Shown in pieces: positions 3,117 to 49,800 of a stretch of DNA of 50,003 nt. The DNA comes from Bacillota bacterium (lineage in GTDB: Bacteria; Bacillota; Clostridia; Peptostreptococcales; Anaerovoracaceae): assembly GCA_017459895.1 (NCBI GenBank), contig JAFUCA010000013.1, forward strand, positions 1-50,003, given 5' to 3'. The notes beneath the pieces are model-generated. The model did not search any database and had not been told where the DNA came from. It saw nothing but the letters and a program-made list of their open reading frames with translations. Positions within the stretch are counted from its first letter, which is position 1, and every line of letters starts with the position of its first letter. The position numbers and the translations under genes are program-made.

Positions 3117-3659
3117 AAGGAGCCATACCTCGGAACAGAGGAACATGGAATCTATGAACTGGATGAGGGTCTGTTTGAAGATGCTCTCGCTGTAGCTGAA
3201 GAGAAGAACTGTCAGGTGTGTATCCATGCCATGGGCGGTCAGACAATTGATAAAGTCATCCGCCGGCTGAGCAGGTCCGCTCGCCGCAGCGCTGGACGCC
3301 TCTCGGCCCCGGCGTTTCGCATGGAACACATTACAGAGCCTTCTGAAAGGGCGATTCGTATCGCGGCAGATCATAATATCTGGTTCTCTTTGCAGCCTGA
3401 TTTTCTGTATTCAGAGACCGAGAGTTATTTAAGCAATCTTGGTCCGGAGCGCACAAAAGAAACATATCCTGTCAAGACTTTGCTCAATGAAGGGGTGAAT
3501 ATATCGCTGTCAACAGACGCACCTGCAACATCCTGGGCGGCTCCATCGGATCCATGGATGAACCTCAAAGCGGCAGTCACGAGGACTGCTTACGAAGGAA
3601 CAGACTGCGGACAGGATCAAAGGCTGGACATAACTAATATTGAATCAAAGGAGATCTGA
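3117..3659 (+). pseudogene. Amidohydrolase (YtcJ-like) remnant, truncated at both ends
   Basis: The open frame carries internal amidohydrolase-3 motifs: KEPYLGTEEHG, CQVCIHAMGGQTIDKVI (family CIHAMGDxAID), FRMEHITEPS, ISLSTDAPATSW and the TAYEGTDCGQDQRLD block. The N-terminal half with the first metal-binding HxH is missing, and after the last motif the frame runs into a short unrelated tail and a terminator. Full members are about 540 residues; about 180 remain. It follows the fic stop codon in the same frame without a start of its own, so it is best read as a decayed or recombined fragment. A copy of the CAAAGGCTGG motif (3618-3627) lies exactly where homology stops. Confidence 0.75.
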
Positions 3660-3687
3660 AGTCATTGACACTTCAAATCTCCTTTTT
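3647..3687 (+). terminator. Strong rho-independent terminator
   Basis: AAAGGAGATCTGAAGT (3647-3662) pairs with ACTTCAAATCTCCTTT (3670-3685) with one mismatch, then T5. Confidence 0.8.
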
Positions 3688-3813
3688 GACATAGAATTGT
3701 CTGCATTTAATCAGGCCCTGTAAAGAATGTTGGGGGGTGGCGGATACTCCAGGGGATGTATGATATACTATGAGCAAAGAAAACGATAAATCGGCATTTG
3801 AAGGGGTGAGATT

Positions 3814-4722
3814 TTGACAATCCAATTCTTAAAATATATAGTTTCTGTAGCTGAGATTGGTTCTATTACGGAGGCAGCAAAACAACTTCATATTTCTCAG
3901 CCAAGTTTATCGGCAGCATTGAAGGAAGCAGAGAAGGAAATCGGCTTTAAGATATTCACAAGAAACCGCAGTGGTATCGCATTGACGAAAGAAGGTGTGG
4001 AATTCCTTGGATATGCGAGGCAGGTGATCCAGGAAATGAACCTTCTGGAAGACCGATTCATTTTGAGCAAACCTGAGAAGCAGCGCTTCTGTGTTTCGAC
4101 GCAACATTATACCTTCACAGCGAATGCGTTTGTTGAAATGGTTCAGAAGTTCTGCCAGGAACGATTTGAGTTTATCCTTAATGAAACTCAGACACATCAG
4201 ATATTAGCGGATGTGAAGAACCGTTTTTGCGATCTGGGAATCATTTATTTGTGCGACAGAAATAAGTCGTTCCTGCGAAAAACAATGAATGAGATGGGAC
4301 TGAGCTTCCATGAACTGTTTTCTGCTTCTCCGCATGTTTTCCTGCGAGCAAAGCATCCTCTGGCTGGGAAAGAATCTGTTACGCTGAAAGACCTGCAGGC
4401 ATATCCCAGATTGAATTTCCTTCAGGGAAGTTACGAGTCAGCGGATTTTTCGGAGGAACCGTTCAGCACAGAACTCTCAGAAAAAGAAATCCGTGTCAGT
4501 GACCGAGCGGCCATCGTAAATCTGATGATTGGACTTGACGGATATACCATATCAAGCGGAATCTTTCCGAAATACCTGCAGGGACGAGAGATTGTTTCAG
4601 TGCCTCTTGCGGAGAAGGAGACCATGCATATTGGTTATGTGCTTTGTAAGGGCCAGAGTCTGTCAGAACTTGGATCGATCTATGTGGATGCATTAAAAAA
4701 ATATGCCCCACAACAAGAATAG
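3814..4722 (+). CDS. LysR-family transcriptional regulator
   Basis: A 302-residue protein with the LysR winged helix-turn-helix at residues 1-60 (VAEIGSITEAAKQLHISQPS, then LSAALKEAEKEIG) and a type 2 periplasmic-binding-like effector domain from about 90 to 295. The start codon is TTG; AAGGGGTGAG lies 6-8 nt upstream and no better start exists. It is followed after 94 nt by a LysE-type exporter on the same strand, with an imperfect palindrome between them, so the exporter is the likely target. The effector is probably an amino acid or similar small molecule (inference from the neighbour). Confidence 0.9.
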   Translation: MTIQFLKYIVSVAEIGSITEAAKQLHISQPSLSAALKEAEKEIGFKIFTRNRSGIALTKEGVEFLGYARQVIQEMNLLEDRFILSKPEKQRFCVSTQHYTFTANAFVEMVQKFCQERFEFILNETQTHQILADVKNRFCDLGIIYLCDRNKSFLRKTMNEMGLSFHELFSASPHVFLRAKHPLAGKESVTLKDLQAYPRLNFLQGSYESADFSEEPFSTELSEKEIRVSDRAAIVNLMIGLDGYTISSGIFPKYLQGREIVSVPLAEKETMHIGYVLCKGQSLSELGSIYVDALKKYAPQQE

Positions 4723-4733
4723 ACAGAAGCTAT

Positions 4734-4760
4734 GGTAAAACATATAAAATAAGTGTTACC
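4734..4760. promoter_or_regulatory. Imperfect palindrome upstream of the LysE-type gene, candidate LysR operator
   Basis: GGTAAAAC (4734-4741) and GTGTTACC (4753-4760) are inverted at 7 of 8 positions across 11 AT-rich bases. The spacing suits a LysR-type site. The assignment is positional inference. Confidence 0.4.
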
Positions 4761-4816
4761 TATATATCTCCGTTTTGCAGTATGATGATATCAACGCTGT
4801 GAAAGGAGATTCTGGT

Positions 4817-5567: not shown

Positions 5568-5745
5568 ATCTCGAAAACATCCTCATGCAAAGGCTGGCCA
5601 GAGCTTTCGTTCGAGATCTGGTCGAGTTCAAAGAAATGAAATCTCGAATGAGTTCGACAGATGCTTTTGAAACAGTCAGAAATAATGGATCGCAGAAGGG
5701 ATTTTCGAGATTTCATCCTCTTTATAAGGTCAATATCTCGAAAAC
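5568..5745. repeat. Cluster of five ATCTCGAA/TTCGAGAT repeats forming two matched hairpins
   Basis: ATCTCGAA occurs at 5568, 5641 and 5735, and its complement TTCGAGAT at 5610 and 5704. The last four form two inverted pairs (5610/5641 and 5704/5735) with identical 31-nt start-to-start spacing. The second pair extends to TTTTCGAGAT/ATCTCGAAAA. Frames in the surrounding 5405-5785 stretch resemble no protein, so I treat it as non-coding with structured repeats. Confidence 0.6.
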
Positions 5746-5785
5746 TCCTTGCCGGTCCTCTTCGATATCGATGTGAGAAACCGTT

Positions 5786-6771: not shown

Positions 6772-6774
6772 ACA

Positions 6775-7556: not shown

Positions 7557-8614
7557 GCAAAGGCTGGAAAGTCCGCGAAAACAAGCGTTCCAGATGGTAT
7601 CGGAACGCGATTCTGTATTTCGTACTGGCGGGTTTTATCGTGACCTGCAATTTCCTGCTGTTCTTTCACTTCGCGCCGATGAGCCTGCAGGAGTCCAAAT
7701 CCGCTGCGATGATGACGCTTGGGAATGTCCTGTTTATGGCAATTCTGTTTTCTCTGGCGGATATTCTGAGGCGATATCTCACATTTACCAGGCCTCTGCG
7801 CCGCATCCAGGAAGGAATCGATAAGGTGGTTTCCGGTGACTTCACCACGAGGATCCAGCCGCTGAAGGGCCCGGGAGCGTCGATCTATAATCCTGTTATT
7901 GAAGGGCTTAACAAGATGACCGCTGATCTCGGGAGCGTAGAAACACTCCGCACGGACTTTATCTCCAATGTTTCCCATGAACTGAAGACCCCGCTTGCAG
8001 CGATCCAGAACAACAGCACCCTGCTGCAGGATCCGCAGATCACGGAAGAAGAGCGTCAGCGGTATGCGAAGGCCATCACTGCGCAGACGAGCCGGCTGTC
8101 CCTTTTGATCTCAAATATCCTGAAGCTGAACAAGCTGGAGAATCAGCAGATCTTCCCAGCCTTTGCATCGGTCGACCTGACGGAATCCGTCTGCAGCAGC
8201 ATGATCAGCTTCGAACATGCATGGGAAGAGAAAGAGATCGAGATCCATACATCGTTTGACGACACCCTCCAGGTAAGCGCTGATCCGGACATGCTATCCA
8301 TCGTCTGGAACAATCTCATGTCAAACGCTGTGAAATTCACGCCGGAGAAGGGAACGATCACCATTGAGACCTTGCGGAAGCCCGGCCGGCCGGCAGTACG
8401 CATTAAGGATACCGGCTGCGGCATGGATGAGGAGACGCAGAAGAACATCTTCCGCAAGTTCTATCAGGGCGACACGTCACACGCCGCGGAGGGAAACGGT
8501 CTTGGACTGGCACTGGTCCGCAGGATCTGCGAGATTCACGGGTGCGAGATCACTGTAAACAGCCGTGTCGGGGCGGGAACTGAATTTATTATTGCATTCC
8601 CGGAGCAGAATTAG
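7553..8614 (+). CDS. Sensor histidine kinase
   Basis: A 353-residue membrane kinase. Two hydrophobic segments (about 21-40 and 54-71) enclose only a very short external loop, so it may sense a membrane or intramembrane signal. A HAMP-like linker (75-130) leads to the HisKA dimerisation domain with phospho-acceptor H142 in SNVSHELKTPLAA, then the ATPase domain with N box (NNLMSNAVKFTP), DTGCGMDEE and GNGLGLALV. It partners the regulator encoded just upstream (4-nt overlap). The short sensor loop resembles intramembrane-sensing kinases of Bacillota; the ligand is unknown. A CAAAGGCTGG copy forms its codons 3-5. Confidence 0.95.
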   Translation: MSKGWKVRENKRSRWYRNAILYFVLAGFIVTCNFLLFFHFAPMSLQESKSAAMMTLGNVLFMAILFSLADILRRYLTFTRPLRRIQEGIDKVVSGDFTTRIQPLKGPGASIYNPVIEGLNKMTADLGSVETLRTDFISNVSHELKTPLAAIQNNSTLLQDPQITEEERQRYAKAITAQTSRLSLLISNILKLNKLENQQIFPAFASVDLTESVCSSMISFEHAWEEKEIEIHTSFDDTLQVSADPDMLSIVWNNLMSNAVKFTPEKGTITIETLRKPGRPAVRIKDTGCGMDEETQKNIFRKFYQGDTSHAAEGNGLGLALVRRICEIHGCEITVNSRVGAGTEFIIAFPEQN

Positions 8615-13179: not shown

Positions 13180-13557
13180 ATGGCAACGATTATCATCATT
13201 TGCGCGGTTCTTCTGATCGCTTTCGCGGTTTACCGGACGATCCAGAAATTCCGGGGCAAGGCGAAGGACAGCTGCTGCGGCACGCCGGAAGTGAAATCCG
13301 TGCGAAAGGTCGAGGACACGGACCGTTCGCACTATCCGTATCACTACACTTTATCGATCGAAGGCATGCATTGCTCGAACTGCGCCCGGACGGTGGAGAA
13401 TGAGCTGAACTCCATGGAAGGCGTCTGGGGTCAGGTCAATCTGGGACGGGGAGAAGCGAAGGTCCTGGCCAAGAGCGAACGGTCCCGTGAGGAGTTCTCG
13501 AAGATCCTCGCCCGAAAGGATTATACGGTTACCGGATTCGCGGCGGAAAATCAATAA
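13180..13557 (+). CDS. Membrane-anchored heavy-metal-associated (HMA) domain protein
   Basis: A 125-residue protein: one N-terminal transmembrane helix (3-18), a short basic stretch with a CC pair (32-33), and a C-terminal ferredoxin-like HMA domain with the metal site GMHCSNC (C65, C68). The N-terminal half resembles the FeoB-associated Cys-rich membrane protein type; the HMA half resembles copper or zinc chaperones and P-type ATPase N-domains. No metal ATPase or feo gene is adjacent, so it is a stand-alone gene. The palindrome over its promoter suggests metal-responsive repression. The likely role is metal delivery at the membrane (inference). Confidence 0.8.
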   Translation: MATIIIICAVLLIAFAVYRTIQKFRGKAKDSCCGTPEVKSVRKVEDTDRSHYPYHYTLSIEGMHCSNCARTVENELNSMEGVWGQVNLGRGEAKVLAKSERSREEFSKILARKDYTVTGFAAENQ

Positions 13558-13576
13558 ACAGAATAGCGTCTGACTC

Positions 13577-13605
13577 TTGCCATGCTGCCCGGGCAGTGGT
13601 ACAAT
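13577..13605 (+). promoter_or_regulatory. Promoter of the thiamine operon
   Basis: TTGCCA (13577-13582), 17 nt, then TACAAT (13600-13605) preceded by TGG, an extended -10. Transcription would start just upstream of the TPP riboswitch. Confidence 0.7.
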
Positions 13606-13617
13606 CCATAGTAACAA

Positions 13618-13705
13618 CACAAGCCAGGGGAGCGAAAGCTGAGAGTCCGATCTTCGGAGACCCTTATTACCTGATCCGGATAATGCCGGCGCAGGGAAGC
13701 GGAAT
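13618..13705 (+). ncRNA. TPP riboswitch (THI element)
   Basis: The conserved aptamer blocks appear in order: AGGGGAGC, GCTGAGAG, a variable hairpin with TTCG loop, GACCCTTATTACCTGATC, CGGATAATGCCGGCG and CAGGGAAGCGG. These are the THI-box helices that bind thiamine pyrophosphate. The aptamer is followed 13 nt later by an intrinsic terminator and then the thiamine transport genes, so it should act by transcription termination when TPP is abundant. Confidence 0.95.
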
Positions 13706-13717
13706 AAGAAACATCTC

Positions 13718-13747
13718 AAGCGCTCCTTTTCGTATGAGCGCTTTTTG
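13718..13747 (+). terminator. Riboswitch expression-platform terminator
   Basis: AGCGCTC (13719-13725) pairs with GAGCGCT (13736-13742), then TTTTTG. It lies directly after the TPP aptamer. A CAAAGGCTGG copy follows at 13758. Confidence 0.85.
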
Positions 13748-13794
13748 TTTGTCCGCGCAAAGGCTGGACAGGGGCGCAGAAAGGAGAACAGTCA

Positions 13795-14091
13795 ATGGAA
13801 GCAAGCGTAGCAATTCAGTCACTGCCGCAGGCACCCGATGATGAGGAGCTGTGCCGGATCGTCGACGAGGTGATCGACTACATCGCGCAGCAGGGGTATA
13901 ACTATTATGTCGGCCCCTTTGAAACCACCATCGAAGGTCCCTATGATGCGCTGATGGATATCGTGAAGGAGTGTCAGCACATCGCGATCCGGGCCGGCGC
14001 ACCATCCGTCGCCGCCTACGTCAAGATCAGTTACAAGCCGGAAGGCGAGGTCCTGAGCATTGAAAAGAAAATCGGCAAATACCACGAATAA
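13795..14091 (+). CDS. Thiamine-binding protein, MTH1187/YkoF-like
   Basis: A 98-residue protein with the COG0011 (formerly DUF77) ferredoxin-like fold: SVAIQSLPQ, IVDEVIDYIAQQGYNYYVGP, FETTIEGPYDALMDIVKECQ, then AYVKISYKPEGEVLSIEKKI. Members bind thiamine or its hydroxymethylpyrimidine part. It is the first gene after the TPP riboswitch and overlaps the permease gene by 32 nt, so it belongs to the uptake operon, perhaps as a cytoplasmic sink or sensor for the imported pyrimidine. AAAGGAG precedes the ATG. Confidence 0.88.
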   Translation: MEASVAIQSLPQAPDDEELCRIVDEVIDYIAQQGYNYYVGPFETTIEGPYDALMDIVKECQHIAIRAGAPSVAAYVKISYKPEGEVLSIEKKIGKYHE

Positions 14092-14854
14092 TCTGTATCC
14101 GGTGATATCCGTTCTGGCGATCCTGGCGCTCTGGGAATGCCTGTCGGTCCTGGAGATAGTACCGAATTTCATGCTGCCTTCCCCGGCGGAAACGGTGAAG
14201 GCATTCGTCCATGACTTCGGACTGCTGATGTACCACTCCAGGGTAACCTTGGCGGAAACGTTGGTGGGAACGGTCACAGGGATCTCCATCGGATTTCTGG
14301 CAGCCTGCCTGATGGACCGGTGGGAGCCCGCCTACAAGGCCATGTACCCGCTGATCGTCCTGACCCAGACCATTCCGGCGGTTGCCATTGCGCCGCTGCT
14401 GGTGCTCTGGTTCGGGTACCGGATGACGCCAAAGATCATCCTGATCATTCTGATCACCTTTTTCCCGATCGCCATCGGAATGCTGGACGGATTCCGGAAT
14501 GTAGACCGGGATGCAGTCAACCTGATGCGGTCCATGGGCGCCAGCCGATGGCAGATCTTCCGGCACATCAAATTCCCCAGCGCGCTGCCCAATTTCTTCT
14601 CGGGCCTGCGCATCACGGTGGCCTACGCGGTCGTAGGCGCGGTGCTGGCGGAGTGGCTGGGCGGATTCGCAGGACTGGGCGTGTATATGACCCGGGTCAA
14701 AAAATCATTTGCCTATGACAAGATGTTTGCGGTGATCTTCCTGATCTCCATCATCAGCCTGCTTCTGATCTGGCTGGTGAATGCGCTGCAGAAGCGGTGC
14801 ATGCCCTGGGAGCGGGAAGAGGCAGCAGGCAGCGAACAGGAAACGATCAAATAA
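14060..14854 (+). CDS. thiX: Thiamine-precursor ABC transporter, permease
   Basis: A 264-residue BPD_transp_1-type permease (SsuC/TauC/ThiX group) with about six hydrophobic segments. The cytoplasmic EAA-like loop is FRNVDRDAVNLMRSMGASRW, then FPSALPNFFSGLRI. The start codon is TTG, overlapping the preceding gene; a GAGG about 10 nt upstream would serve it, and starting later would remove the first hydrophobic segment. It lies between the thiamine-binding gene and the solute-binding lipoprotein, with the ATPase last. The substrate, probably a hydroxymethylpyrimidine, is inferred from the riboswitch and ThiY-type receptor. Confidence 0.88.
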   Translation: MKRKSANTTNNLYPVISVLAILALWECLSVLEIVPNFMLPSPAETVKAFVHDFGLLMYHSRVTLAETLVGTVTGISIGFLAACLMDRWEPAYKAMYPLIVLTQTIPAVAIAPLLVLWFGYRMTPKIILIILITFFPIAIGMLDGFRNVDRDAVNLMRSMGASRWQIFRHIKFPSALPNFFSGLRITVAYAVVGAVLAEWLGGFAGLGVYMTRVKKSFAYDKMFAVIFLISIISLLLIWLVNALQKRCMPWEREEAAGSEQETIK

Positions 14855-14877: not shown

Positions 14878-15900
14878 ATGAAGAAGAAACTATTAGCAGC
14901 ACTCGTCTGCCTGGTGATGGCCAGCCTTTGCCTGGCGGGCTGCGGATCGGAGCAGGCGGCAGAAGAGGATACCGCGGGCACCGACAACACGAAGATCACC
15001 TTCGTGCTCGACTGGACACCGAACACCAACCACACCGGCGTGTATGTCGCGCAGGAGCTGGGGTATTTTGAGGAAGCGGGACTGGATGTGGAAGTCGTGC
15101 AGCCGCCCGATGACGGCGCGGAGACCATGGTCGGCTCCGGACAGGCCCAGTTCGGTGTGTCCTTCCAGGATTACATGGTGCCGGCTCTGAGCGGATCGGA
15201 GAAGACCATCCCGATCACGGCGGTGGCCGCGATCCTGCAGCACAATCTTTCCGGTATCATGTCCGCGAAGGGGAACGGAATCACCAGCCCGAAGGGACTG
15301 GAGGGAAAGTCCTACGCTACCTGGGAGCTGCCCATCGAGCAGGCGATCCTGAAGGAGTGCGTGGAGGAAGACGGCGGTGACTTCAGCAAGGTGGAACTGA
15401 TCCCGGAGACCATCGACGATGAAGTGTCCGCGCTGAAGGCCGGTCAGATCGACAGCATCTGGGTGTATTACGGATGGGCCGGCGTCAATGCCGAGGTCAA
15501 GGACTTCCCGATCGATTACTTCGCCTTCAAGGATATCGATGAAGCCTTTGACTATTATTCGCCGGTGATCATCGCCAACGATGACTTTCTGGCCAGCGAT
15601 CCGGATACCGCGAAGGCCTTCCTGGCAGCGGTGAGCAAGGGCTATGAATACGCGGCAGAGAATCCGCAGGAAGCTGCGGACATTCTGGTCAAGGCCAACC
15701 CGGAGGTCGACGCGGATCTGGCCCTGGCGAGCCAGAAGTATCTGGCGGATCAGTACATTGCCGATGCGGATCAGTGGGGCGTGATCAACGCGGACCGCTG
15801 GAACGGGTTCTATCAGTTCATCAACGAGAAGGGACTGGCAGAGGAAGAGATCCAGATGGATTACGGATTCTCCAACGACTATCTGCCGGCAGCGAAATAA
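14878..15900 (+). CDS. thiY: Thiamine-precursor ABC transporter, substrate-binding lipoprotein
   Basis: A 340-residue lipoprotein. The signal peptide ends in CLAGC, with lipidated C22. The mature part is NMT1/THI5-like: FVLDWTPNTNHTGVYVAQEL, GYFEEAGLDVEVVQPP, SGQAQFGVSFQD, then YATWELPIEQAILK. The DWTPNTNHTG pocket motif is characteristic of ThiY proteins, which bind N-formyl-4-amino-5-aminomethyl-2-methylpyrimidine. Anchored outside the membrane, it would hand the ligand to the ThiX permease. It starts 23 nt after the permease and ends 1 nt before the ATPase start. A CAAAGGCTGG copy lies antisense inside its signal peptide (14921-14930). Confidence 0.92.
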   Translation: MKKKLLAALVCLVMASLCLAGCGSEQAAEEDTAGTDNTKITFVLDWTPNTNHTGVYVAQELGYFEEAGLDVEVVQPPDDGAETMVGSGQAQFGVSFQDYMVPALSGSEKTIPITAVAAILQHNLSGIMSAKGNGITSPKGLEGKSYATWELPIEQAILKECVEEDGGDFSKVELIPETIDDEVSALKAGQIDSIWVYYGWAGVNAEVKDFPIDYFAFKDIDEAFDYYSPVIIANDDFLASDPDTAKAFLAAVSKGYEYAAENPQEAADILVKANPEVDADLALASQKYLADQYIADADQWGVINADRWNGFYQFINEKGLAEEEIQMDYGFSNDYLPAAK

Positions 15901-15901: not shown

Positions 15902-16645
15902 ATGAGCCACAAGCTGGAAACCCGCAGTATCACCATGCGGTTCGGTGACAAAAAGGTCATTGAGGATGTATCCATCGCGGTGGATCAGGGGGAGCTGGTC
16001 AGTCTGCTGGGGGTTTCCGGCAGCGGCAAGACCACGCTGTTCAACTGCATCTCCGGGATCTACCGTCCCACGGAAGGCAGCGTTCTTCTGGACGGTGAGG
16101 ACATCACAGGCACGACCGGCCGCATCAGCTACATGCTCCAGAAGGATCTGCTGCTGCCCTACAAGACCATCGAGGACAATGTGGCACTGCCCCTGGTCAT
16201 CCGGGGAATGGCGAAGAAGGAAGCAAGAGCGCAGGCGGCGGCCCATTTCGGGGAATTCGGCCTTGCCGGAACACAGAAGCAGTACCCGAAGCAGCTGTCC
16301 GGCGGCATGCGGCAGCGGGCGGCCCTGCTGCGAACGTATCTGTTCTCAGACAATGTGGCGCTGCTGGATGAGCCGTTTTCGGCGCTGGATACGATCACGA
16401 AGGGTAAGATCCATCGGTGGTACCTGGATGTGATGGAGAAGATCCGGCTGACGACGGTGTTCATCACCCATGACATCAACGAGGCGATCCTGCTGTCCGA
16501 CCGGATCTACATCATGACGGGGGCCCCCGGGCAGATCCGGGACGAGATACGGATCCGAACGCCCCGCGCCCAAAGGCTGGAGTACGATCTGACGGATGAG
16601 TTCATGGAGTACAAGCGGCAGATCATGGGACTGCTGGAGAGTTAA
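15902..16645 (+). CDS. thiZ: Thiamine-precursor ABC transporter, ATPase
   Basis: A 247-residue ABC ATPase: Walker A GVSGSGKTT (37-45), Q-loop in YMLQKDLLLPYKT, signature LSGGMRQRAALLRTY, Walker B VALLDEPFSALD, and a switch histidine in TTVFITHDINEA. The closest groups are SsuB/TauB/ThiZ ATPases. It is the last gene of the riboswitch-controlled operon, one base after the lipoprotein stop codon. A hairpin with T tract follows. It energises uptake of the pyrimidine precursor. Confidence 0.92.
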   Translation: MSHKLETRSITMRFGDKKVIEDVSIAVDQGELVSLLGVSGSGKTTLFNCISGIYRPTEGSVLLDGEDITGTTGRISYMLQKDLLLPYKTIEDNVALPLVIRGMAKKEARAQAAAHFGEFGLAGTQKQYPKQLSGGMRQRAALLRTYLFSDNVALLDEPFSALDTITKGKIHRWYLDVMEKIRLTTVFITHDINEAILLSDRIYIMTGAPGQIRDEIRIRTPRAQRLEYDLTDEFMEYKRQIMGLLES

Positions 16646-16660: not shown

Positions 16661-16692
16661 GGATGCGTCGTTTCAGGCGGCGCATTCTTTTA
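16661..16692. terminator. Bidirectional terminator between thiZ and the MFS gene
   Basis: ATGCGTCG (16663-16670) pairs with CGGCGCAT (16678-16685) with one G-T pair, and T-rich bases follow. It separates two convergent units. Confidence 0.65.
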
Positions 16693-18087: not shown

Positions 18088-18093
18088 GAGAAG

Positions 18094-18122
18094 AGTATAA
18101 TCCTTTCGGCGGCAAGAATCAA
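18094..18122 (-). promoter_or_regulatory. Leaderless-type promoter of the MFS gene
   Basis: On the minus strand: TTGATT (18122-18117), 17 nt, TATACT (18099-18094), 6 nt, ATG (18087). The expected transcription start coincides with the start codon. Confidence 0.7.
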
Positions 18123-18153
18123 TTGAAAAACGGGCGGCTTTTGCCCCGCCGGG

Positions 18154-18172
18154 CCAGCCTTTGTGGTATACT
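18154..18172 (+). promoter_or_regulatory. Extended -10 promoter of the hypB genes, abutting the CAAAGGCTGG motif
   Basis: CCAGCCTTTG (18154-18163, motif on the minus strand) runs directly into TGGTATACT (18164-18172). The -10 TATACT is at 18167-18172. Confidence 0.55.
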
Positions 18173-18220
18173 GGCAGTGCCACTCATTGAGTGGCAGAAC
18201 GACAGAAAGGGTACAAGGCC

Positions 18221-22510: not shown

Positions 22511-23221
22511 ATGACGCTGCTCCAGGCGGACAATTTAGCGGTAGGATACGATTCAACCCCGGTGGTGCGGGGGATTTCCTTTGCCGTGGAGGCGGGGGAT
22601 TACCTGTGCATCGTCGGAGAAAACGGCTCCGGCAAGACCACGCTCATGAAGACCCTGCTGGGACTGCAGGATCCCATCGAAGGACGGATCATCCGAGGGG
22701 AGAACCTGGGGAAGGATGAGATCGGCTATCTGCCCCAGCAGACGCAGATCCAGAAGGATTTTCCCGCTTCCGTGCGGGAGGTCGTTCTGTCGGGCTGTCA
22801 GGCAAAGGCTGGCTTTCGTCCCTTCTATAACCGTCAGGAAAAGGAAACCGCTGCGAGGAACATGGAGCGGATGGGGATCGCAGAGCTCGCGGATCGCTGC
22901 TACCGGGACCTGTCCGGAGGGCAGCAGCAGCGGGTCCTGCTGGCAAGAGCCCTGTGCGCGGCAGAGAAGATCCTGCTGCTGGATGAGCCGGTCTCCGGTC
23001 TGGATCCGAAGGTGACCGCGGAGATGTACGCCCTGATCCGTCAGCTGAATGAGGATGGGGTCACGATCCTCATGATCTCCCACGATATCGACGAGGCGCT
23101 GGGATTCGCGACGCACATTCTGCATGTCAGCGACCATGTCTTCTTCGGAACCAGGGAGGCGTTTTTAAGCAGCGAGGAAGGCCGCAGATTCACCGGATGG
23201 GAAGGAGGAACTGTCGAATGA
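22511..23221 (+). CDS. Metal ABC transporter ATPase (zinc/manganese type)
   Basis: A 236-residue ABC ATPase of the ZnuC/MntB group: Walker A GENGSGKTT (36-44), IGYLPQQTQIQKDFPASVRE (the QQxxxxxxFP pattern typical of these ATPases), signature LSGGQQQRVLLARAL, Walker B ILLLDEPVSGLD and MISHDIDEA. Its stop codon overlaps the permease start (ATGA). No substrate-binding lipoprotein gene is adjacent, so the receptor must be encoded elsewhere. Zinc is the likeliest substrate given FolE2 nearby; manganese or iron is possible. Confidence 0.9.
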   Translation: MTLLQADNLAVGYDSTPVVRGISFAVEAGDYLCIVGENGSGKTTLMKTLLGLQDPIEGRIIRGENLGKDEIGYLPQQTQIQKDFPASVREVVLSGCQAKAGFRPFYNRQEKETAARNMERMGIAELADRCYRDLSGGQQQRVLLARALCAAEKILLLDEPVSGLDPKVTAEMYALIRQLNEDGVTILMISHDIDEALGFATHILHVSDHVFFGTREAFLSSEEGRRFTGWEGGTVE

Positions 23222-32190: not shown

Positions 32191-33278
32191 GTCCCCCGGG
32201 GCAGATCCGGATCAACGCAATATCGGATCGAAAGCAAAGGATACTTCTCAGCGAAGTATTTTTTGTTTGCGCCGCCGTGACCGACCATGTTGGAGAAGGA
32301 TTCGCCGCAGCAGGAAAAGAGGAGCCGCCTGCGGGATCCTCCGGTGCTCCCGCTCGCAACACCGGCGGTGCTCCCGCTCGCAACACCGGCGGTGCTCCCG
32401 GACAGTAACGCCTGCAGCTGATGCTCCAGATCCTCTCGGGCGAGCTCTCCCTCCACCAGCTGACGAAAGGCGGGGTGAAACGAGTGCCCGCAGGTCCTGC
32501 GGTTTTCGGAGGTCTCCGAGATCAGATCCGTGCTCTTGAGCCCGACCCGCAGGATCGTGATGCCGGCATCGTCCAGAATGCGGTACATCTCCTTCGTGAC
32601 GGCAACGGCCTCTTCTGTGGTCAGGGGATGATAGAGCCCTGCGGCGTAGCGGCGGGCAAGCTCCGTGTCCTCCAGCACGACCGTCGGGTAAAGGCGGGCC
32701 AGGGAAGGTCCGATCTTCACGGTCTGACGTGCGGAGTCAATGCATTTTTCCGGGCTGTCCTGGGGAAGGCCGATCATCAGCTGGATGCCAAGCTCGAATC
32801 CGTATTCTTTGATCAGATCACAGGCGCGGTACACGTCCTCGGCGGTATGACCCCGGCGGCTTGCGCGAAGGACCTCCGGGTCAAAGGACTGCACGCCCAG
32901 CTCGATGATGTCCACGCCATAGGCGCGCAGCTGATCGAGGATGGGAGCATCGATGTAATCGGGACGGGTGGAGAGATGGATCTTATCGATTCGTCCCTGA
33001 TCCTTGTATTCCTTCGTGACAGCAAGAAACGCGGCCTGTTCCTCCATGGGAAGGCCGGTAAAGCTCCCTCCGTAAAACGCGGCTTCGATCGTTTCCAGCC
33101 CCGATCCGGACCCGTCCAGCCTTTGCATGGTGGAGAGCCACTGGTCCAGAATGCGCCGTACGTCCTGAGGTGTGACGTCCGGCTGACGCGCTGTGATCGC
33201 CCGCTGATTGCAGAAGACACAGGCGTGGCCGCAGCCGCGGTGCGGTATGAAAATCGGTATGATCGCGTGCTTTTTCAT
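32160..33278 (-). CDS. Radical SAM protein, Elp3/YhcC-like
   Basis: A 372-residue radical SAM enzyme. The cluster motif is [12 protein letters not shown] (C16, C20, C23), followed by [23 protein letters not shown] and [13 protein letters not shown], which match the Elp3-like radical SAM family of unassigned bacterial proteins. A low-complexity Gly/Ser/Thr/Ala stretch at about residues 293-315 comes from a 24-bp tandem repeat in the DNA. No Shine-Dalgarno precedes the ATG; a TGATACAAT -10 ends 9 nt before it, so the leader is at most a few bases. Substrate unknown; tRNA or protein modification is possible. Confidence 0.87.
32343..32400. repeat. 24-bp in-frame tandem repeat (2.4 copies)
   Basis: A 24-bp unit starting GGTGCTCCCG occurs at 32343-32366 and 32367-32390, identical, with 10 bases of a third copy to 32400. 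On the minus strand each unit adds eight residues (AGVASGST-like) to the radical SAM protein. Copy number could vary between strains without breaking the frame. Confidence 0.85.
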
Positions 33279-34687: not shown

Positions 34688-35359
34688 ATGGTTCACATCG
34701 GAAACAGCTGGGACGAGAAGCTCAGAGGAGAATTTGATAAGGATTATTACCTGCAGCTGCGGGAATTTCTGAAAGAGGAGTACGCCAGCCGGACCGTTTT
34801 TCCGGGCATGTACGATATTTTCAACGCACTGAAGTACACACCCTACGAGGAGGTCCGGGCGGTGATTCTGGGACAGGATCCCTATCACGAGCCGGGACAG
34901 GCCCACGGGCTGTGTTTTTCTGTGCAGAAAGGCGTGCCCGCGCCCCCGTCTCTGGTGAATATCTTCCGGGAGCTGAAGGAGGATCTGGGGATCGATCCGC
35001 CGTCCCACGGGTGTCTGGAGAGCTGGGCGAGAAACGGTGTGCTTCTGCTCAATACCGTTCTGACGGTACGGGAGCATGCGGCCCATTCCCACAAGGGCAA
35101 AGGCTGGGAGATCTTTACCGATCGTGTGATCCGGCTGCTGAACGAGCGCCCGGAGCCGATGGTGTTCATTCTGTGGGGAAGACCTGCCGGAATGAAGGCG
35201 GACCTGATCACATCGCCTCAGCACGAGATCATTACAGGGGCGCATCCGAGTCCGCTGTCGGCTCACCGGGGATTCTGGGGCGGCCGGTATTTTTCCCGGA
35301 CCAATGATTTTCTGGTGCGGTCGGGAAGCCAGCCCATCGACTGGAGGATTCCGGAATGA
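34688..35359 (+). CDS. ung: Uracil-DNA glycosylase, family 1
   Basis: A 223-residue enzyme removing uracil from DNA. It shows the water-activating loop ILGQDPYHEPGQAHGLCFSV (catalytic D64), VLLLNTVLTVR, FILWGRPAG (uracil-specificity region) and the minor-groove loop AHPSPLSAHRGFWGG. The length is standard. Translation probably starts on a leaderless mRNA. It overlaps the LysO-type exporter gene by 4 nt (ATGA), an unexpected operon partner. Confidence 0.95.
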   Translation: MVHIGNSWDEKLRGEFDKDYYLQLREFLKEEYASRTVFPGMYDIFNALKYTPYEEVRAVILGQDPYHEPGQAHGLCFSVQKGVPAPPSLVNIFRELKEDLGIDPPSHGCLESWARNGVLLLNTVLTVREHAAHSHKGKGWEIFTDRVIRLLNERPEPMVFILWGRPAGMKADLITSPQHEIITGAHPSPLSAHRGFWGGRYFSRTNDFLVRSGSQPIDWRIPE

Positions 35360-38361: not shown

Positions 38362-38474
38362 AGCTTCGCAAAAATGCTCGGTGGTTTCCCGCCGCTGACC
38401 CTGCAAAGGCTGGCCAGCACGTTACCAAATTCTGGCATTATTGTACCTGAACATGCTTTCAGAGTGATTTTTAC

Positions 38475-39772: not shown

Positions 39773-40606
39773 ATGGAACGAATCGACTGGAACCGGCTCT
39801 GGCAGGAATACTGCGCGGAAGAAGAAATGAAAGAGGACCGTGCCTTCTGGGATGAGTTCGCTCCGAGCTACCGAAAAAAAAGAGCGGCGGGGGAAGATCC
39901 GTACGTCGAGCAGTTTTATGAGTATTCCGGGTTTGAGCCGGGGGAAACGATCTTTGATATGGGCTGCGCCTCCGGAACGCTGGCGATCCCCTTCGCAGAG
40001 AAAGGCCATGAGGTGTACGCGGCGGATTTCAGCCCGGAAATGCTGAAGCAGCTGATGGCGGGGGCGCAGGAGGCGGGCGTTTCGGAGCGGATCCATCCCA
40101 TCCGGCTGGACTGGAATGAGGACTGGACCGCCCGGCCCGACCTGCCTTTGTGCGATGTCGCGCTCTCCTCCCGATCCTTCATAACCCGTGATCTGGCCGG
40201 TGCGATCCGTAAGCTGGAGTCCGTTGCCCGCCGCAGGGTCTGCATCGGGGCCTGGGATGAACCGGCGAAGGGATACGACCGATACGCGGCTCGTTATATC
40301 GGGTATGAACGGCCGGGCTATTCCTGCTATTTCTTTATCATGAACGAACTGATGGACCGGGATCTGTTCCCAGAACTTCACTTCATCCGGCAATCCTTCC
40401 GTCTGAGACGGTATGAAAGCAGGGAGGATGCGCTGCGTACCCAGACCGCCGCATTTCAGTACGGGCTCACCGATGAGCAGATGCAAAGGCTGGAGCAATA
40501 CATTGAGGAGCACCTGGTGCGGTGCGATGAGGCAGGCAGGCAGTACTGGAGGCTTGATCACAGCGACGAATCCACCATAGCGCATATCCGGTGGGATGTG
40601 AGGTGA
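39773..40606 (+). CDS. Class I SAM-dependent methyltransferase
   Basis: A 277-residue protein. SAM motif I is FDMGCASGTLAIPFAEKGHE (about 61-80), motif II VYAADFSPEMLKQL, and motif IV-like CDVALSSRSF. The C-terminal half contains FFIMNELMDRDLFPELHFIR, typical of the uncharacterised small-molecule methyltransferases of Clostridia. The substrate is unknown. GGGAGG precedes the ATG. The gene lies downstream of a Crp-type palindrome that is repeated before the next gene, a Crp/Fnr regulator, so it is a likely member of that regulon (inference). Confidence 0.85.
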   Translation: MERIDWNRLWQEYCAEEEMKEDRAFWDEFAPSYRKKRAAGEDPYVEQFYEYSGFEPGETIFDMGCASGTLAIPFAEKGHEVYAADFSPEMLKQLMAGAQEAGVSERIHPIRLDWNEDWTARPDLPLCDVALSSRSFITRDLAGAIRKLESVARRRVCIGAWDEPAKGYDRYAARYIGYERPGYSCYFFIMNELMDRDLFPELHFIRQSFRLRRYESREDALRTQTAAFQYGLTDEQMQRLEQYIEEHLVRCDEAGRQYWRLDHSDESTIAHIRWDVR

Positions 40607-41511: not shown

Positions 41512-44500
41512 ATGGAAGAAATCAGGAAATTCAAGCGCGTGCTCGTTGCCAACCGCGGTGAGATCGCGATCCGGATTTTCAGAGCCTGTAAGGAGCTTGG
41601 TATCAGGAGCGTTGCGATCTATTCCGCAGAGGACAAGAACACACTGTTCCGGACCAAGGCGGATGAGTCCTACCAGATCGGCCGGGGCAAGGCACCGGTC
41701 GATGCGTATCTGGCCATTGATGAGATCATCGATCTGGCCAAATCCAAGGGGATCGAGGCGATCCATCCGGGATATGGTTTTCTTTCCGAAAATACAGCCT
41801 TTGCGAAGGCCTGTGAAGCGGCGGGCATCGTGTTCATCGGACCGGATTATCACATGATGGATAATCTGGGTGACAAGGTGAAATCCAAGATCATTGCAAA
41901 CTCCGTGGGAGTTCCGACGATTCCGGGCAATACGGAGACCGTTCCGGATGTGGAGACGGCGCTGGCCTTCGCGGAGGACTGCGGATATCCGGTCATGCTC
42001 AAGGCAGCGGCCGGCGGCGGCGGACGGGGCATGCGGATCGTGCGCGGCGCAGAGGAGATGAAGGATCAGTTTATCAGTGCCAGAAGCGAAGCCGCCAAGG
42101 CCTTCGGCATCGACGATATCTTCATCGAGAAATATCTGGAGCGGCCGAAGCACATCGAGGTGCAGGTGCTGGGAGACAACCACGGCAATGTGGTCCATCT
42201 CTATGAACGGGACTGTTCCATCCAGCGGCGGCATCAGAAAGTCATCGAGTTCACCCCGGCCCTGAACATTTCCGACGAGCTGCGCCAGCGGCTCTGCCAG
42301 GATGCCATTAAGATCGCGAAGGCCGTCGATTACCGGAGCGCCGGAACGGTAGAGTTCCTGATCGATAAGGACGAAAACCACTACTTCATCGAGATGAATC
42401 CGCGGATCCAGGTGGAGCATACCGTGACCGAGATGACCACCGGGATCGATCTGGTTCAGTCCCAGATCCTGATCGCCGAGGGGTATGCTCTCGACTCGCC
42501 GCAGGTCGGCATCGTGCAGGAGCAGATTCAGCCCAGAGGCTATGCGATCCAGTGCCGTGTGACGACCGAGGATCCGATGAACGGATTCGCGCCGGATACC
42601 GGTGTCATCACGAAGTACAACAGCCCGGGGGGCTTTGGCATCCGGCTGGATGCCGGCAACGCCTTCGTCGGGGCGGAGATCTCTCCGTACTACGACAGCC
42701 TTCTGGTCAAGGTGACCTCCTGGGCGAGGAATTTCGCGGACGCGGCGGAAAAGGCCGGCCGCGCGCTGAAGGAAATGAATGTCAAGGGCGTCAAGACCAA
42801 CCGTACCTTCCTGCTGAACGTGCTGAACCACCCGGTCTTCCGGGAGGGCGGATGCGATACCGGGTTCATCGCCGATCATCCGCAGCTTCTGAACGTTCAG
42901 CCGAAGGAAGATAAGGAACTGAAGGTCCTGACCTTCCTGGGAGAGAAGTACGTCAACGGCAACCGGGGCGTCAAACCCGATTTCAACGTGCCCGTATTCC
43001 CGCGGATCAAACCGGGTGAGATCCAGCCTTTGCGCGGAACGAAACAGCTGATCGATGAGAAGGGGCCGGAGGGCGTCGTCGAATGGATACGGGGGCAGGA
43101 GAAGCTGCTGATGACCGATACCAGCATGCGGGATGCCCAGCAGTCCCTGATGGCGACCCGTGTGCGGACCGTGGATATGGAGAAGATCGCCCCGGCGGTC
43201 GCGCTGTACGGCAGAGACCTGTTCTCCCTGGAGATGTGGGGCGGAGCGACCTTTGATACGGCATTCCGGTTCCTGAACGAATCCCCCTGGGAGCGTCTGG
43301 AAACGCTGCGGGAGAAGATCCCCAACATCATGTTCCAGATGCTGCTGCGGGGTGCCAATGCCGTCGGCTACAAGAACTACCCGGATAACGTGATCCGCCG
43401 GTTCGTGAAGGAAGCGGCTGCCTCCGGAATCGACGTGTTCCGCATCTTCGATTCCCTCAACTGGATCGAAGGCATGAGCGTGGCGCTGGACGAAACCCTG
43501 AACCAGGGCAAGCTGGCGGAGGCCTGCATCTGCTATACGGGCGACATTCTCGACGAGAAACGGGATAAATACAGTTTGCAGTATTATGTCAACATGGCGA
43601 AGGAACTGGAGAAACGGGGCTCTCACATCCTCGGAATCAAGGATATGTCCGGTCTGATCAAGCCGATGGCGGCCCAGAAACTGATCACGGCGCTGAAGAA
43701 CGAGATCGGCATTCCGATCCATCTGCATACCCACGATACCAGCGGCAATGGCGTGGCGACCCTGATGATGGCCGCCGGCGCCGGAGTGGATATCGTCGAC
43801 GCAGCCTTCAACAGCATGTCCGGACTGACCAGTCAGCCGGCTCTGAACTCCATCGCAGCTGCGCTGGACGGAACGGACCGCGACCCGGGCCTGGACATGG
43901 ATGGGATCCAGAGGATCTCCGATTACTGGGCTGATGTGCGTCCGGTCTATAAGCAGTTCGAATCGGACATGCAGACCGGATCGGCTGAGATCTACAAATA
44001 CGAGATGCCGGGAGGACAGTACTCCAACCTGAAGTCCCAGGTGGAGAGCTTCGGCCTCGGACATAAGTTCCAGGAAGTCAAGGATATGTACAAGACCGTC
44101 AACGAGATGCTGGGAGACATCGTCAAGGTCACCCCGTCCTCCAAGGCAGTGGGCGACATGGCGATCTTCATGGTGCAGAACGATCTGACGCCGGACAACA
44201 TCTACGAGAAGGCGAAGGACATCGACTTCCCGGATTCCATCGTTTCCTTCTTCGAGGGAATGATGGGCCAGCCGGTGGGCGGTTTCCCGGATAAGCTCCA
44301 AAAGCTGGTGCTCCACGGCAAAGAGCCGATCACCTGCCGGCCGGGCGAGCTGCTGCCGGACGAAGATTTCGACGGAATCAAACAGATGCTCCGGGAGAAG
44401 CACGGCCTGGAAGGCACCGAGCAGGAAGCGCTGAGCTACGCGCTGTACCCGAAGGTCTTCGAGGACTACCTGGATTCTCTCAAGAAAAAGGGCAACTTCC

Positions 44501-46665: not shown

Positions 46666-46797
46666 AGTCATCCTCTTCGTACAGATTGGCAGAACGTGTG
46701 CAAAAAAGCAGAACGCACATACCAGATATAGTATATTTGATTTGCGGGATGTTTTAAAGAAAAATCTGGATTAATACTTAAAAAACACATCGGACAG

Positions 46798-46806
46798 TGG
46801 TAGAAT
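46798..46806 (+). promoter_or_regulatory. dnaE: Extended -10 promoter of dnaE
   Basis: TGG-TAGAAT, with the -10 at 46801-46806, about 30 nt before the ATG, leaving room for GGAAAGGA. Confidence 0.5.
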
Positions 46807-46837
46807 AACATCATATATTTCGGAAAGGACGGGCTCG

Positions 46838-49800
46838 ATGGCGTTCACACACCTTCATGTACATACCGAATACAGCCTGCTGGACGGAGCATCCAGGATC
46901 AGCGATATCGTGGCCAGAGCGAAGGAACTGGGCATGGATTCGCTGGCGATTACGGATCACGGGGTCATGTTCGGGGTCATTGATTTTTATCGGGAGTGTC
47001 AGAAACAGGGCATCCATCCGGTCATCGGCTGTGAGGTCTACACCGCGGCGAGAACCCGTTTCGATAAGGATGCGGAGAAGGATAAACTGATGGGCCATCT
47101 GGTGCTTCTGGCCGAAACGGATCAGGGGTACCGAAACCTGATGAAGATCGTTTCGGAGAGCTTCCGTCATGGCTTCTACTACAAACCGCGGGTCGACAGG
47201 GAACTGCTGAAGCAGTATTCCGAGGGTCTGATCGCGCTCTCCGCATGTCTTGCGGGAAATGTGCAGCGCTGCCTTCTGAACGGGAATTACGAGGGCGCCC
47301 GCGCAGAAGCGCTGGAGATGTCCCGGATCTTCGGGGAGGGGAACTTCTTCCTGGAGCTGCAGGATCAGGGTCTGGAGGAAGAGGCCAGGATTCTGCCGGA
47401 TATGATCCGCCTCCATGAAGAGACGGGCCTGCCTTTGGTCGCGACCAACGATGTGCATTACGTTCGCCAGGAGGATGCGAAGGCGCAGGATGTGCTGATG
47501 TGCATCCAGACGGGTGCGACGATCGATGAGCCGAACCGGATGCGTTTTCAGGGCGATCAGTTCTATCTGAAATCCGAAGAGGAGATGCGTCTTCTGTTCG
47601 CCGGATTCCCCGAAGCGCTGGAAAATACGCACAGGATCGCCCAGCGCTGCAATGTGGAATTCACCTTCGGAGAGCTTCACCTGCCGGATTTCACGGCCCC
47701 GGAGGGCATGACCAACCGGGAATATCTGCGTCATCTGTGCGAAACCGGTCTCAGGGAGCGGTACGGAAGTCCCGATGCGTCCCTCATCCAAAGGCTGGAC
47801 TACGAGCTGACGACCATCGAGAACATGGGATACGTCGAGTATTTTCTCATTGTCTGGGATTTCATCAATTACGCGAAGAGCCGGAACATCATGGTCGGGC
47901 CGGGCCGGGGGTCCGCTGCGGGAAGCATCGTTGCCTATACCCTGCGGATCACAGACGTCGACCCGATCAAATACGGACTGATCTTTGAACGGTTCCTGAA
48001 TCCGGAGCGGGTCAGCATGCCGGATATCGACATCGACTTCTGCTACGAACGGCGGGGGGAAGTCATCGATTACGTTACAGAGAAATACGGCGCGGACAAT
48101 GTATCCCAGATCATCACCTTCGGCACCATGAAGGCGAAGCAGGCGGTGCGGGATGTCGGACGGGTGCTGAATGTCAGCTATCAGGACACGGATGCCATCG
48201 CCAAGGCCATTCCTTTCGCGCTGAACATGACCATCGACCGGGCCCTGGACATGAGTCCGGATCTCAAGGCGAAATATGAAGAGGACGTTCAGGCGCGCCA
48301 GGTCATCGACATGGCGAAGGCGATCGAAGGAATGCCCCGGCACGCTTCGACCCATGCGGCGGGCGTCGTGATCTCGAAGAAAGCCCTGGACGAATACGTT
48401 CCGCTCTATCTGACCGATAAGGGTCTGGCGACCCAGTTCAATATGACGACCATCGAGGAGCTGGGGCTTCTCAAGATGGACTTTCTGGGTCTGCGAAATC
48501 TGACGATCATACGGGATGCCCTCGAAATGATCGAAACGAATCATGGGGTGAAGATCGATTTCGCTCAGATGGAATACGATGATCCGAAGGTGTACGAGAC
48601 CATCTCCGGCGGCAACACCATGGGGATCTTCCAGCTGGAGAGCGGCGGGATGACCTCCTTCATGAAGAATCTGAAGCCGGACTGCTTTGAAGATATCGTT
48701 GCGGGGATTGCGCTGTACCGGCCGGGTCCGATGGCATCGATTCCCACCTATATCGATAACAAGAAGAATCCCCAGCATGTCACCTACATTCACGAGAGCC
48801 TGCGGCCGATCCTGGACGTTACCTACGGCTGCATGGTCTATCAGGAGCAGGTCATGCAGATCGTCCGGGATCTGGGCGGTTATTCCTACGGCCGGTCCGA
48901 TCTGGTCCGCCGGGCCATGAGCAAGAAGAAACGGGCGGTCATGCTGGAGGAGAAGGAGATCTTCATCCACGGCAAAACCGATGAACAGGGAAATGTGGAG
49001 ATCGCCGGATGCGTGAGAAACGGGATTCCCCAGGAAGCGGCAGAGGAGATCTACAATCAGATGATCAGCTTCGCCGAATACGCATTCAACAAATCCCATG
49101 CGGCGGCTTACGCCGTATTGGCATATGAGACGGCGTATCTGAAGACCCACTATCCGGTGGAGTTTATGGCAGCGCTGATGACCAGCGTCATGGGAGATGC
49201 CGCTTCGATGGCGAACTACATCCACAACTGCCGGGAGATGGGGATCGAGGTGCTTCCTCCGGACATCAATGAGAGCAGCGAGAAGTTCACCTGCCTCTAC
49301 GATAAAGATGATACCCGGCGTCAGCACGGCAAGATCCGTTTCGGACTGCTGGGCATCAAGAATCTGGGAAAAGGCGCCATCGAGGCCATCATCGAGGCCA
49401 GGGAGCAGAAGGGCTGTCCGGCCGACATCTTCCGCTTCATTGAGAATCTCGACATCCATAGGGTCAACCGCAAGGGAATCGAGAGCCTGATCAAGGCAGG
49501 CGCGCTGGATTGCCTGAGCGGCAGCCGCGCGGCCCATCTGGTCGTCTATGAGAGGCTGCTGGATGCGGCGCAGTCCGATGCCAAGCACAATATCGAAGGC
49601 CAGCTGTCCCTCTTTCAGATCAATGCGGACGCGATGGAGGAGAGTTCCGTGCGGCCTCAGCTGCCGGACGTAGCGGAATTCGGTCAGGATGTGCTGATCG
49701 CGCAGGAGAAGGAAATGCTGGGTGTCTACATCACGGCTCATCCCCTGCAGGAGTACGACGAAATGATCTCCCGGTTGGTAACCGTCACCTCCGGCCAGCT

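Follow-up and report, generated by a model that had tools for sequence, protein, structure and literature searches.

A DNA word with lineage-specific dialects, over-represented in a clade of Clostridia, as a putative DNA uptake sequence

Copies of the word in the window

The window, i.e., the whole stretch of 50,003 nucleotides that was analyzed, contains 15 exact copies of the word CAAAGGCTGG, 10 on the plus strand and 5 on the minus strand. This number and the strand distribution had been claimed in an earlier note on this DNA, and every copy was found where it had been placed. Eleven of the 15 copies share the form GCAAAGGCTGG, verifying that most of them have one extended form. Genes were called with our own script, which missed some genes and was poor in the first 6 kb of the window, and the reading frames were assessed for the 11 copies that lie within script-called genes. 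Three of these encode K-G-W, four Q-R-L, and one A-K-A-G, while three are antisense, so that at least three frames and three antisense positions are occupied, as had been proposed. Pfam matches also supported the annotation of the histidine kinase, ABC ATPase, methyltransferase and DNA polymerase III alpha genes as hosts.

The first copy (3618..3627, plus) is located in an amidohydrolase-like ORF (3216-3659), close to its 3' end; the script had overlooked this ORF, and the copy is therefore corrected here to a genic one. The second (5588..5597, plus) is preceded by TG, yielding TGCAAAGGCTGG, and lies outside the gene calls in the poorly called first 6 kb. Two copies are found in the histidine kinase gene, one at its start, sense and encoding K-G-W (7558..7567, plus), and one antisense with the form TGCAAAGGCTGG (8156..8165, minus). 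The next copy (13758..13767, plus) is outside of called genes. It had been described as lying just after a TPP terminator; a TPP riboswitch aptamer (13616-13714) does end 44 bp before its start, but a simple scan of 13400-14000 found no terminator. Further copies are antisense within an NMT1/THI5-like gene (14921..14930, minus), sense as Q-R-L in an ABC transporter ATPase gene, with the form CCAAAGGCTGG (16571..16580, plus), sense as K-G-W close to the start of an MFS transporter gene (18154..18163, minus), and sense as A-K-A-G in an ABC transporter ATPase gene (22803..22812, plus).

For most of the remaining copies, loci of related genomes could be aligned. The copy in a radical SAM gene (33116..33125, minus, sense, Q-R-L) is kept in G011 and G010, but not in G001 and G012, and that in the uracil-DNA glycosylase gene (35098..35107, plus, sense, K-G-W) is kept in G011 and G001 and reads CAAGGGCTGG in G010. 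One copy with the form TGCAAAGGCTGG directly follows the BipA/TypA gene, outside of called genes (38404..38413, plus). The copy in the methyltransferase gene (40484..40493, plus, sense, Q-R-L) reads CAAAAGCTGG in G011. The antisense copy in a pyruvate carboxylase-like gene (43023..43032, minus) is kept in G011, but not in G010, G001 and G012, and the last one, in the DNA polymerase III alpha gene (47789..47798, plus, sense, Q-R-L), is kept in all three aligned relatives (G011, G010, G001). Taken together, 12 of 22 word sites were kept in aligned DNA of four relatives, compared to about 3.4 expected, a baseline that still contains protein constraint; alignments under 70% identity or 250 bases had been dropped.

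In 100 dinucleotide shuffles of the window the word occurred 0.07 times on average and at most twice. Markov models predicted between 0.10 (order 1) and 0.40 copies (order 5), i.e., an excess of about 150-fold, in agreement with the earlier value, or of 37-fold with the order-5 model, the expectation of which is inflated by the word copies themselves.

Abundance, reading frames and strands in the genome

The genome that contains the window (G000; 2.5 Mb, 55 contigs, 93% complete) looks like a metagenome-assembled genome. It contains 791 copies of the word, 395 forward and 396 reverse, or one per 3.2 kb (0.32 per kb), and only 7 copies of the reversed word. The number is thus not near expectation. 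In 539 kb of this genome, 179 exact copies were found and 1.65 expected, an about 100-fold over-representation. The consensus around the copies is TGCAAAGGCTGG. In the surroundings of 142 copies, the information outside of the word was concentrated in the 2 bp upstream and the 2 bp downstream of the word, and weak preferences (at most 0.17 bits) were seen at -5 and at offsets 15-17 from its first base, the latter for C/G. Contig L100 is a duplicate of a part of G000:C34 with 3 words; it is included in the consensus, flank and dialect tallies, but not in the frame, strand and position-spectrum counts. The genome also contains other intergenic repeat arrays. Two tyrosine recombinase sites sit among housekeeping genes, and no mobile element was recognized in which a depletion of the word, typical of uptake sequences, could have shown. 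The word copies could derive from a small mobile element that was once repeated, for which the presence of repeat arrays might speak, but the information is largely confined to 2 bp on each side, and copies lie within conserved genes and are frequently retained at aligned positions, so that such an origin is very improbable.

Of the 179 copies, 145 are in called genes, where they occupy all six frames, and 34 are outside, which is an upper bound because the caller missed some genes. In each of the six frames and in DNA outside called genes the word was at least 65-fold more frequent than composition-matched permuted words (0.1-0.6 per class; controls holding CAAA or TTTG were left out). As the earlier note had argued from the window, amino-acid constraint is therefore insufficient as an explanation. 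The codon usage points in the same direction. Gln-Arg-Leu was spelled CAA-AGG-CTG in 29 of 56 cases (0.2 expected), although CAA accounts for only 4.6% of the Gln codons and AGG for 10.5% of the Arg codons, compared to 41.9% for CGG; the use of AGG in the Q-R-L copies is indeed unusual, as had been noticed. The word also encodes 34 of 45 QPL and 13 of 14 KGW tripeptides. Word copies thus override codon choice.

The word could be suspected to result merely from mutation or from a bias in codons or amino acids, as several word-spelled tripeptides are about twofold more common than predicted from amino-acid composition, and as GCAAAGGCA, the form prevalent in some relatives (see below), is most common in the frame spelling Ala-Lys-Ala. 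The CKG tripeptide was not enriched (10 versus 9.4), and SLQ was left out of this comparison. The enrichment in six frames and outside called genes and the use of the rare codons CAA and AGG rule out a codon string. In addition, the excess of the word is restricted to one clade among the loci tested, and decayed neighbors are missing at the core positions: at five positions only 9 one-mismatch copies were found compared to 18.8 expected (539 kb, 179 exact copies), and thus no decayed copies beyond chance, while variants were in excess at the other positions. The rigid core is therefore formed by AAA, C and G, and variants are tolerated elsewhere. A codon- or mutation-driven origin can hardly be upheld.

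The word and its dialects are asymmetric and not palindromic. The copies were spaced randomly rather than evenly (CV 0.95, compared to 0.97 under random placement). Inverted pairs are frequent among the DNA uptake sequences (DUS) of Neisseria, where they are linked to terminators. Here, four pairs within 60 bp were found versus 3.6 expected, two of them inverted; pairs are not enriched, and a role as inverted-pair terminators was rejected.

Chi sites are short, lineage-specific, abundant and strongly biased to the leading strand. The word resembles them in the first three respects, and it could be a Chi-like site, controlling an AddAB-type nuclease-helicase and maintained because it serves the repair of double-strand breaks. 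However, the exact word had no leading-strand bias in its own genome (94:77 leading:lagging, p 0.22), and CAAARGCTG was distributed 141:141; this test covered 515 of 539 kb, after the removal of 10-kb blocks that had a weak skew or were shorter than 5 kb. The motif (10-12 bp) is also longer than the Chi sites of Firmicutes, which have 5-7 bp. A mild leading bias was observed for the core GCAAAGGC in species with loose tails (90:56, p 0.006), and GCAAARGCA was close to significance in species with the A dialect (99:73, p 0.056), which would be in line with a Chi-like function. Strand symmetry in the window's genome disfavors Chi as well as KOPS, the near-absolute strand polarity of which is absent here, and overall a Chi-like function is considered quite unlikely.

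Core and dialects in related genomes

Among the 36 other congeners, 28 carry many copies of the core GCAAAGGC. It exceeds its reversed control also in most outgroups, and is only about twofold above it in G012 and G032; the core excess has therefore to be judged by density. The tails are lineage-specific: -TGG in the window's genome, -A(A/G) in many congeners, and loose in others. Accordingly, the counts of CAAAGGCTGG and GCAAAGGCA were 791 and 45 in G000, but 8 and 557 in G007, and 13 and 577 in G020. A BipA tree was built from the window and 36 of the 80 BipA loci, and the core-enriched loci formed one clade of Clostridia near Anaerovoracaceae (support 100/99); this tree bears on core enrichment. 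In the word-poor genomes G022, G023, G024, G031, G019 and G009, no top-listed 10-mer had more than 6 copies (17-40 kb each; sizes of relatives are rounded values). A fixed core, lineage-specific tails and core enrichment in one clade are thus combined, as in uptake sequences with dialects. Together with the absence of strand bias in the window's own genome, the dialects around a fixed core favor an uptake sequence over Chi. The genome-wide signal of the Chi or uptake kind suspected earlier is supported by the count, the indifference to reading frame and the clade-limited distribution seen in the related genomes, with uptake as its putative function.

A further candidate explanation is that the word is the target of a chromosome-organizing or DNA-modifying protein (a nucleoid protein, an orphan or defense methylase, or another binder) that selects for many copies. 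The core-plus-tail design and the turnover between species would suit a changing DNA-binding protein. Methylases are compatible with an asymmetric word, since some of them (Type III, BREX) have asymmetric sites. Cyanobacterial HIP1 is likewise extremely over-represented genome-wide in one lineage, but it is palindromic and the word is not, and a strand polarity of the KOPS type is lacking. Separate selection on about 800 sites, overriding codons and leaving no decayed core copies, would moreover be difficult without a copying bias. Such a target is unlikely, yet it deserves more weight than a Chi-like site.

Comparison with uptake systems and a putative function

Taken together, Chi, KOPS, a palindromic site and codon bias all fit less well than an uptake sequence with dialects, and TGCAAAGGCTGG is probably a DNA uptake sequence, i.e., a self-recognition tag for natural transformation. 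Uptake sequences (USS) of Pasteurellaceae have T-rich flanks at helical spacing. The word shares with them the non-palindromic nature and the rigid core, but it differs in lineage and has only the weak C/G preference at offsets 15-17. An effect of USS on proteome composition is reportedly the subject of a paper that PMC7811141 cites. For Neisseriaceae, the excerpt of PMC3630211 describes the DUS as an over-represented 10-12-mer with hundreds to thousands of copies and with dialects that have a fixed common core and follow phylogeny; it gives 1900 copies in 2.2 Mb. The similarities include over-representation, a fixed core with dialects, both orientations and positions inside genes. In contrast, the sequence and the phylum differ, an excess of inverted pairs is not seen, the density is lower (0.32 versus about 0.86 per kb calculated from these numbers), and no ComP-like receptor was identified for the putative uptake role.

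The genome encodes ComEC (G000:C8:79351) and ComEA (G000:C11:16019). This machinery is not specific to word-rich species, as both proteins are also encoded in the word-poor G022, G023, G024 and G031. Among six word-rich genomes that are 74-90% complete, ComEC had no match in G010, G032, G033 and G036, and ComEA none in G035 and G012. A gene cluster of G000 combines a PilC-like platform, small pilin-like proteins and a PilT-like ATPase, and in this respect resembles the monoderm competence type IV pilus (ComG). It differs in that it also encodes a DUF4860 protein and a transglutaminase-like lipoprotein, and its role in DNA uptake would be hypothetical; of 27 genomes of the genus, 3 had matches to canonical N-methyl pilins (Pfam), but G000 had none. 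Of 17 loci with this type IV pilus (T4P)-like operon, L166 was excluded because of its short length. The other 16 had an identical gene order, and the divergence followed groups. In 20 of the 49 genomes of the genus, including the word-rich G030 (98% complete) and G021 (96%), the platform gene was not matched, while it is present in the word-poor G019, G024 and G031. The A dialect, in turn, accompanies two very different operon classes (G016/G017 versus the rest). As its occurrence is not correlated with that of the word, the operon is only a candidate for the dialect determinant. A second T2SSE-type ATPase, which we take to be Tad judging by length and match, is also found in the word-poor G019, G022, G023 and G024.

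If the word is an uptake sequence, a surface DNA-binding part of the uptake machinery would prefer word-bearing DNA, and ComEA and ComEC would then bring one strand inside. Word-bearing fragments would enter the chromosome by recombination more often, so that copies would accumulate and damaged copies would be replaced. A pilin encoded in the T4P-like operon or a protein of the Tad pilus may act as the binder, as may another component; for monoderm competence pili, DNA binding is described as a property of the minor-pilin tip (excerpt of PMC12040237). Shifts of the binder's specificity in a lineage would be followed by the genome, and the resulting dialects would bias exchange to close kin.

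According to the excerpt of PMC7811141, a strong uptake preference has been described for two Gram-negative families, and nothing related by title to the word itself was found among the matches listed in the open PMC literature. Judging from the genomes, we cautiously favor an independently evolved, species-discriminating uptake code in Clostridia, with one origin, several dialects and at least 29 species (G000 and 28 congeners), by which gut bacteria of this clade may recognize the DNA of their own kind in natural transformation. If true, it would be a third, independent case, making self-recognition by a DNA word a repeatable outcome of transformation, and it would be evidence for natural transformation in these gut Clostridia. 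As the dialects split species of one genus, they would also offer a handle for finding the receptor from sequence. Even with another function, a mechanism is required to explain why hundreds of copies of such a clade-specific code are maintained.

Abundance of the word and its reading frames

The 15 copies of the 10-bp word CAAAGGCTGG that the earlier note had reported for the window (10 plus, 5 minus) were all recovered where it had placed them, against a shuffle mean of 0.07. The note had also suspected a genome-wide signal, and this was borne out in the source genome, G000 (2,495,951 bases, 55 contigs, 93% complete; contig 54 begins with the window). The word occurred 791 times, 395 forward and 396 reverse, versus 7 times for its backwards-read letters. 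In 539 kb of G000, with a duplicate contig omitted, 179 exact copies were present and 1.65 were expected from an order-3 model. The 9-kb contig 14 (L100) duplicates part of the larger contig 34, and thus the assembly contains some redundancy.

The claimed independence of reading frame held as well. The 179 copies were distributed over the sense frames (28/39/14), the antisense frames (14/15/35) and sequence outside called genes (34), while permuted words yielded 0.1 to 0.6 per class. This disfavours codon bias as the explanation. CAA makes up 4.6% of the Gln codons in G000 and AGG 10.5% of the Arg codons, yet word-coded Gln-Arg-Leu uses AGG, as had been noticed before: the tripeptide was written CAA-AGG-CTG in 29 of 56 cases (expected 0.2). 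Gln-Pro-Leu was spelled by the word in 34 of 45 cases and Lys-Gly-Trp in 13 of 14. Several word-spelled tripeptides were about twice as frequent as expected from composition; no such excess was found for Cys-Lys-Gly. Copies in six frames and outside called genes, together with the rare codons imposed, show that the word is a signal at the DNA level.

Structure of the motif

The flanks were profiled for 142 copies from 421 kb of G000 (the window and 20 further stretches, duplicate contig included). Upstream, G was found at -1 in 100 copies and T at -2 in 86, giving the consensus TGCAAAGGCTGG, and G was scarce at -5. Directly downstream there was a weaker preference for A/C, then for C/G, and C/G was weakly favoured at offsets 15-17, counted from the word's first base. 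This profile disfavours a repeat as the source of the copies.

One-mismatch copies (539 kb) were in excess at the fifth (45), last (68), eighth (29), sixth (24) and first letter (21), with 2.2 to 6.2 expected at each. No such excess was seen at the three A or at the C and G of CTG (total 9 versus 18.8 expected). These positions appear strictly required, with no build-up of decayed copies. Intervals between copies were random, and close pairs (at most 60 bp) were not enriched in the 539 kb (4 versus 3.6 expected).

Other repeats were also seen. Palindromic arrays in contigs 6 and 3 of G000 (L082 18287-18547, L084 17489-17645, L088 10440-10680) have the unit CGTGACAA-N13to15-TTGTCACG and a period of 52 bp, and one encloses CAAAGGCTGA, which differs from the word at one position. 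CGTGACAA occurred 58 times in 26 stretches scanned; it was absent from the fetched stretches of the congeners G001, G010 and G011. L004, a contig piece of a relative, carries 73-bp repeat arrays with AGGTGTGAC at both ends (1-300 and 13900-14255). CGGGAGCA(C) was over-represented in G000 (91 in 472 kb), partly due to a 24-bp repeat at window 32345-32400, and was noted also for G010 and G024. At window 16663-18183 long ORFs overlap on opposite strands; the minus-strand ORF encodes an MFS transporter, and the plus-strand ORF had no Pfam match at 1e-5.

Dialects among congeners and apparent origin

Among the 36 congeners the complete word was abundant in three (G001 375, G010 388, G011 477), slight in G012 (41) and present in 0 to 26 copies in the remaining 32. 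Its 8-bp core, GCAAAGGC, reached at least about 190 per Mb in 28 of the 36 (genome sizes rounded). It stayed at or below about 115 per Mb in eight (G005, G009, G019, G022, G023, G024, G028, G031) and about 81 per Mb in 24 genomes of the order that belong to other families. In G012 and G032 it was only about twice its reversed control, as the 8-mer control is not negligible. Compared with an order-2 model, CAAARGC was 1.9- to 5.0-fold in excess in stretches of word-rich species and 0.3- to 1.4-fold of expectation in G009, G019, G022, G023, G024 and G031; the ratios of 2.1 in G005 and 2.3 in G028 stem from just 6 and 11 copies, respectively.

The tail of the core was -TGG in G000, G001, G010 and G011, A followed by A/G in G003, G007, G014, G016, G017 and G020, a less sharp A in G004, G008, G015, G021 and G029, and T in G034. 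In G013, G018, G027, G030, G032 and G033 the core was strong and had little tail. Whole-genome counts of CAAAGGCTGG versus GCAAAGGCA confirmed this split seen in the flanks: 791 versus 45 in G000, 375 versus 115 in G001, 8 versus 557 in G007, 13 versus 577 in G020, and 7 versus 497 in G016. Across 158 genomes of the order, TGCAAAGGC had 584 copies in G000, or 234 per Mb, and a density of no more than about 40 per Mb in any of the others, among which word-poor G019 was the sole congener.

The closest records were uncultured Clostridia, several of them from ruminant or horse guts according to their titles; Anaerovorax, Emergencia and Hornefia were more distant. By coordinate, G011 corresponds to a record of isolate SRR873601_bin.129 and G010 to one of isolate RGIG2569 (goat jejunum). 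In a maximum-likelihood tree of 37 BipA rows, drawn from outside the word-poor congeners, all 18 rows labelled for an at least 2.5-fold CAAARGC excess fell within one 19-row clade (support 100/99). The nineteenth row, L026, is a 3-kb contig holding one copy. The tree required 2 label changes versus a shuffle mean of 12.8, and 0 of 500 shuffles were that low. The simplest reading is a single origin of core enrichment, followed by tail changes. Where G000 was aligned with four relatives (78-83% identity), 12 of 22 word sites were exactly kept (G011 6/8, G010 2/5, G001 3/6, G012 1/3), and about 3.4 were expected from all 10-mers there, protein constraint included. Gains and losses were also seen.

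Strand symmetry, competence genes and a putative uptake role

With leading strands assigned by GC skew, the word had no significant strand bias in G000 (94 leading, 77 lagging, p 0.22), and CAAARGCTG was found 141:141; for comparison, the median share of common 8-mers on their stronger strand was 0.65. Leading:lagging counts in A-dialect species were 64:48 for GCAAAGGCA (p 0.16) and 99:73 for GCAAARGCA (p 0.056), and in loose-tail species 90:56 for GCAAAGGC (p 0.006) and 63:51 for GCAAAAGC (p 0.30). The even use of both strands disfavours Chi sites and segregation motifs, and the asymmetric sequence of the word disfavours palindromic words of the HIP1 kind.

G000 carries genes for ComEC and ComEA. 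A ComEC match was present in 30 of the 36 congeners and missing from G009, G010, G019, G032, G033 and G036; of these six, word-poor G019 is 97% complete and the word-rich ones 79-81%. Of the 49 genomes of the genus, 43 had ComEA above the cut-off. G000 also has a T4P-like operon (L153 7062-11891) encoding a transglutaminase-like lipoprotein, a PilC-like platform, four small pilin-like/DUF4860 proteins and a PilT-like ATPase, with identical gene order in 16 loci inspected; a canonical N-methyl pilin had no match in G000. The platform gene was matched in 29 of the 49 genomes, among them word-poor G019, G024 and G031, and had no match in word-rich G030 and G021. A second T2SSE-type ATPase of G000 presumably belongs to a Tad system. 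Tad pili are tied to DNA uptake in Micrococcus luteus. A tie of Tad pili to DNA uptake is also described for Liberibacters (PMC8513845).

Preferential uptake has been described in Pasteurellaceae and Neisseriaceae, and most other competent bacteria tested are described as accepting DNA of any sequence (PMC7811141); the matches listed from the open-access literature included no case in Bacillota. It is possible that a DNA-binding or DNA-modifying protein of some other kind targets the word. The word's frame independence, strand symmetry, non-palindromic form, rigid core, lineage-specific tails, apparently single origin and displacement of codons are the picture of DNA uptake sequences, and these sequence features point to a putative role of the word in DNA uptake.
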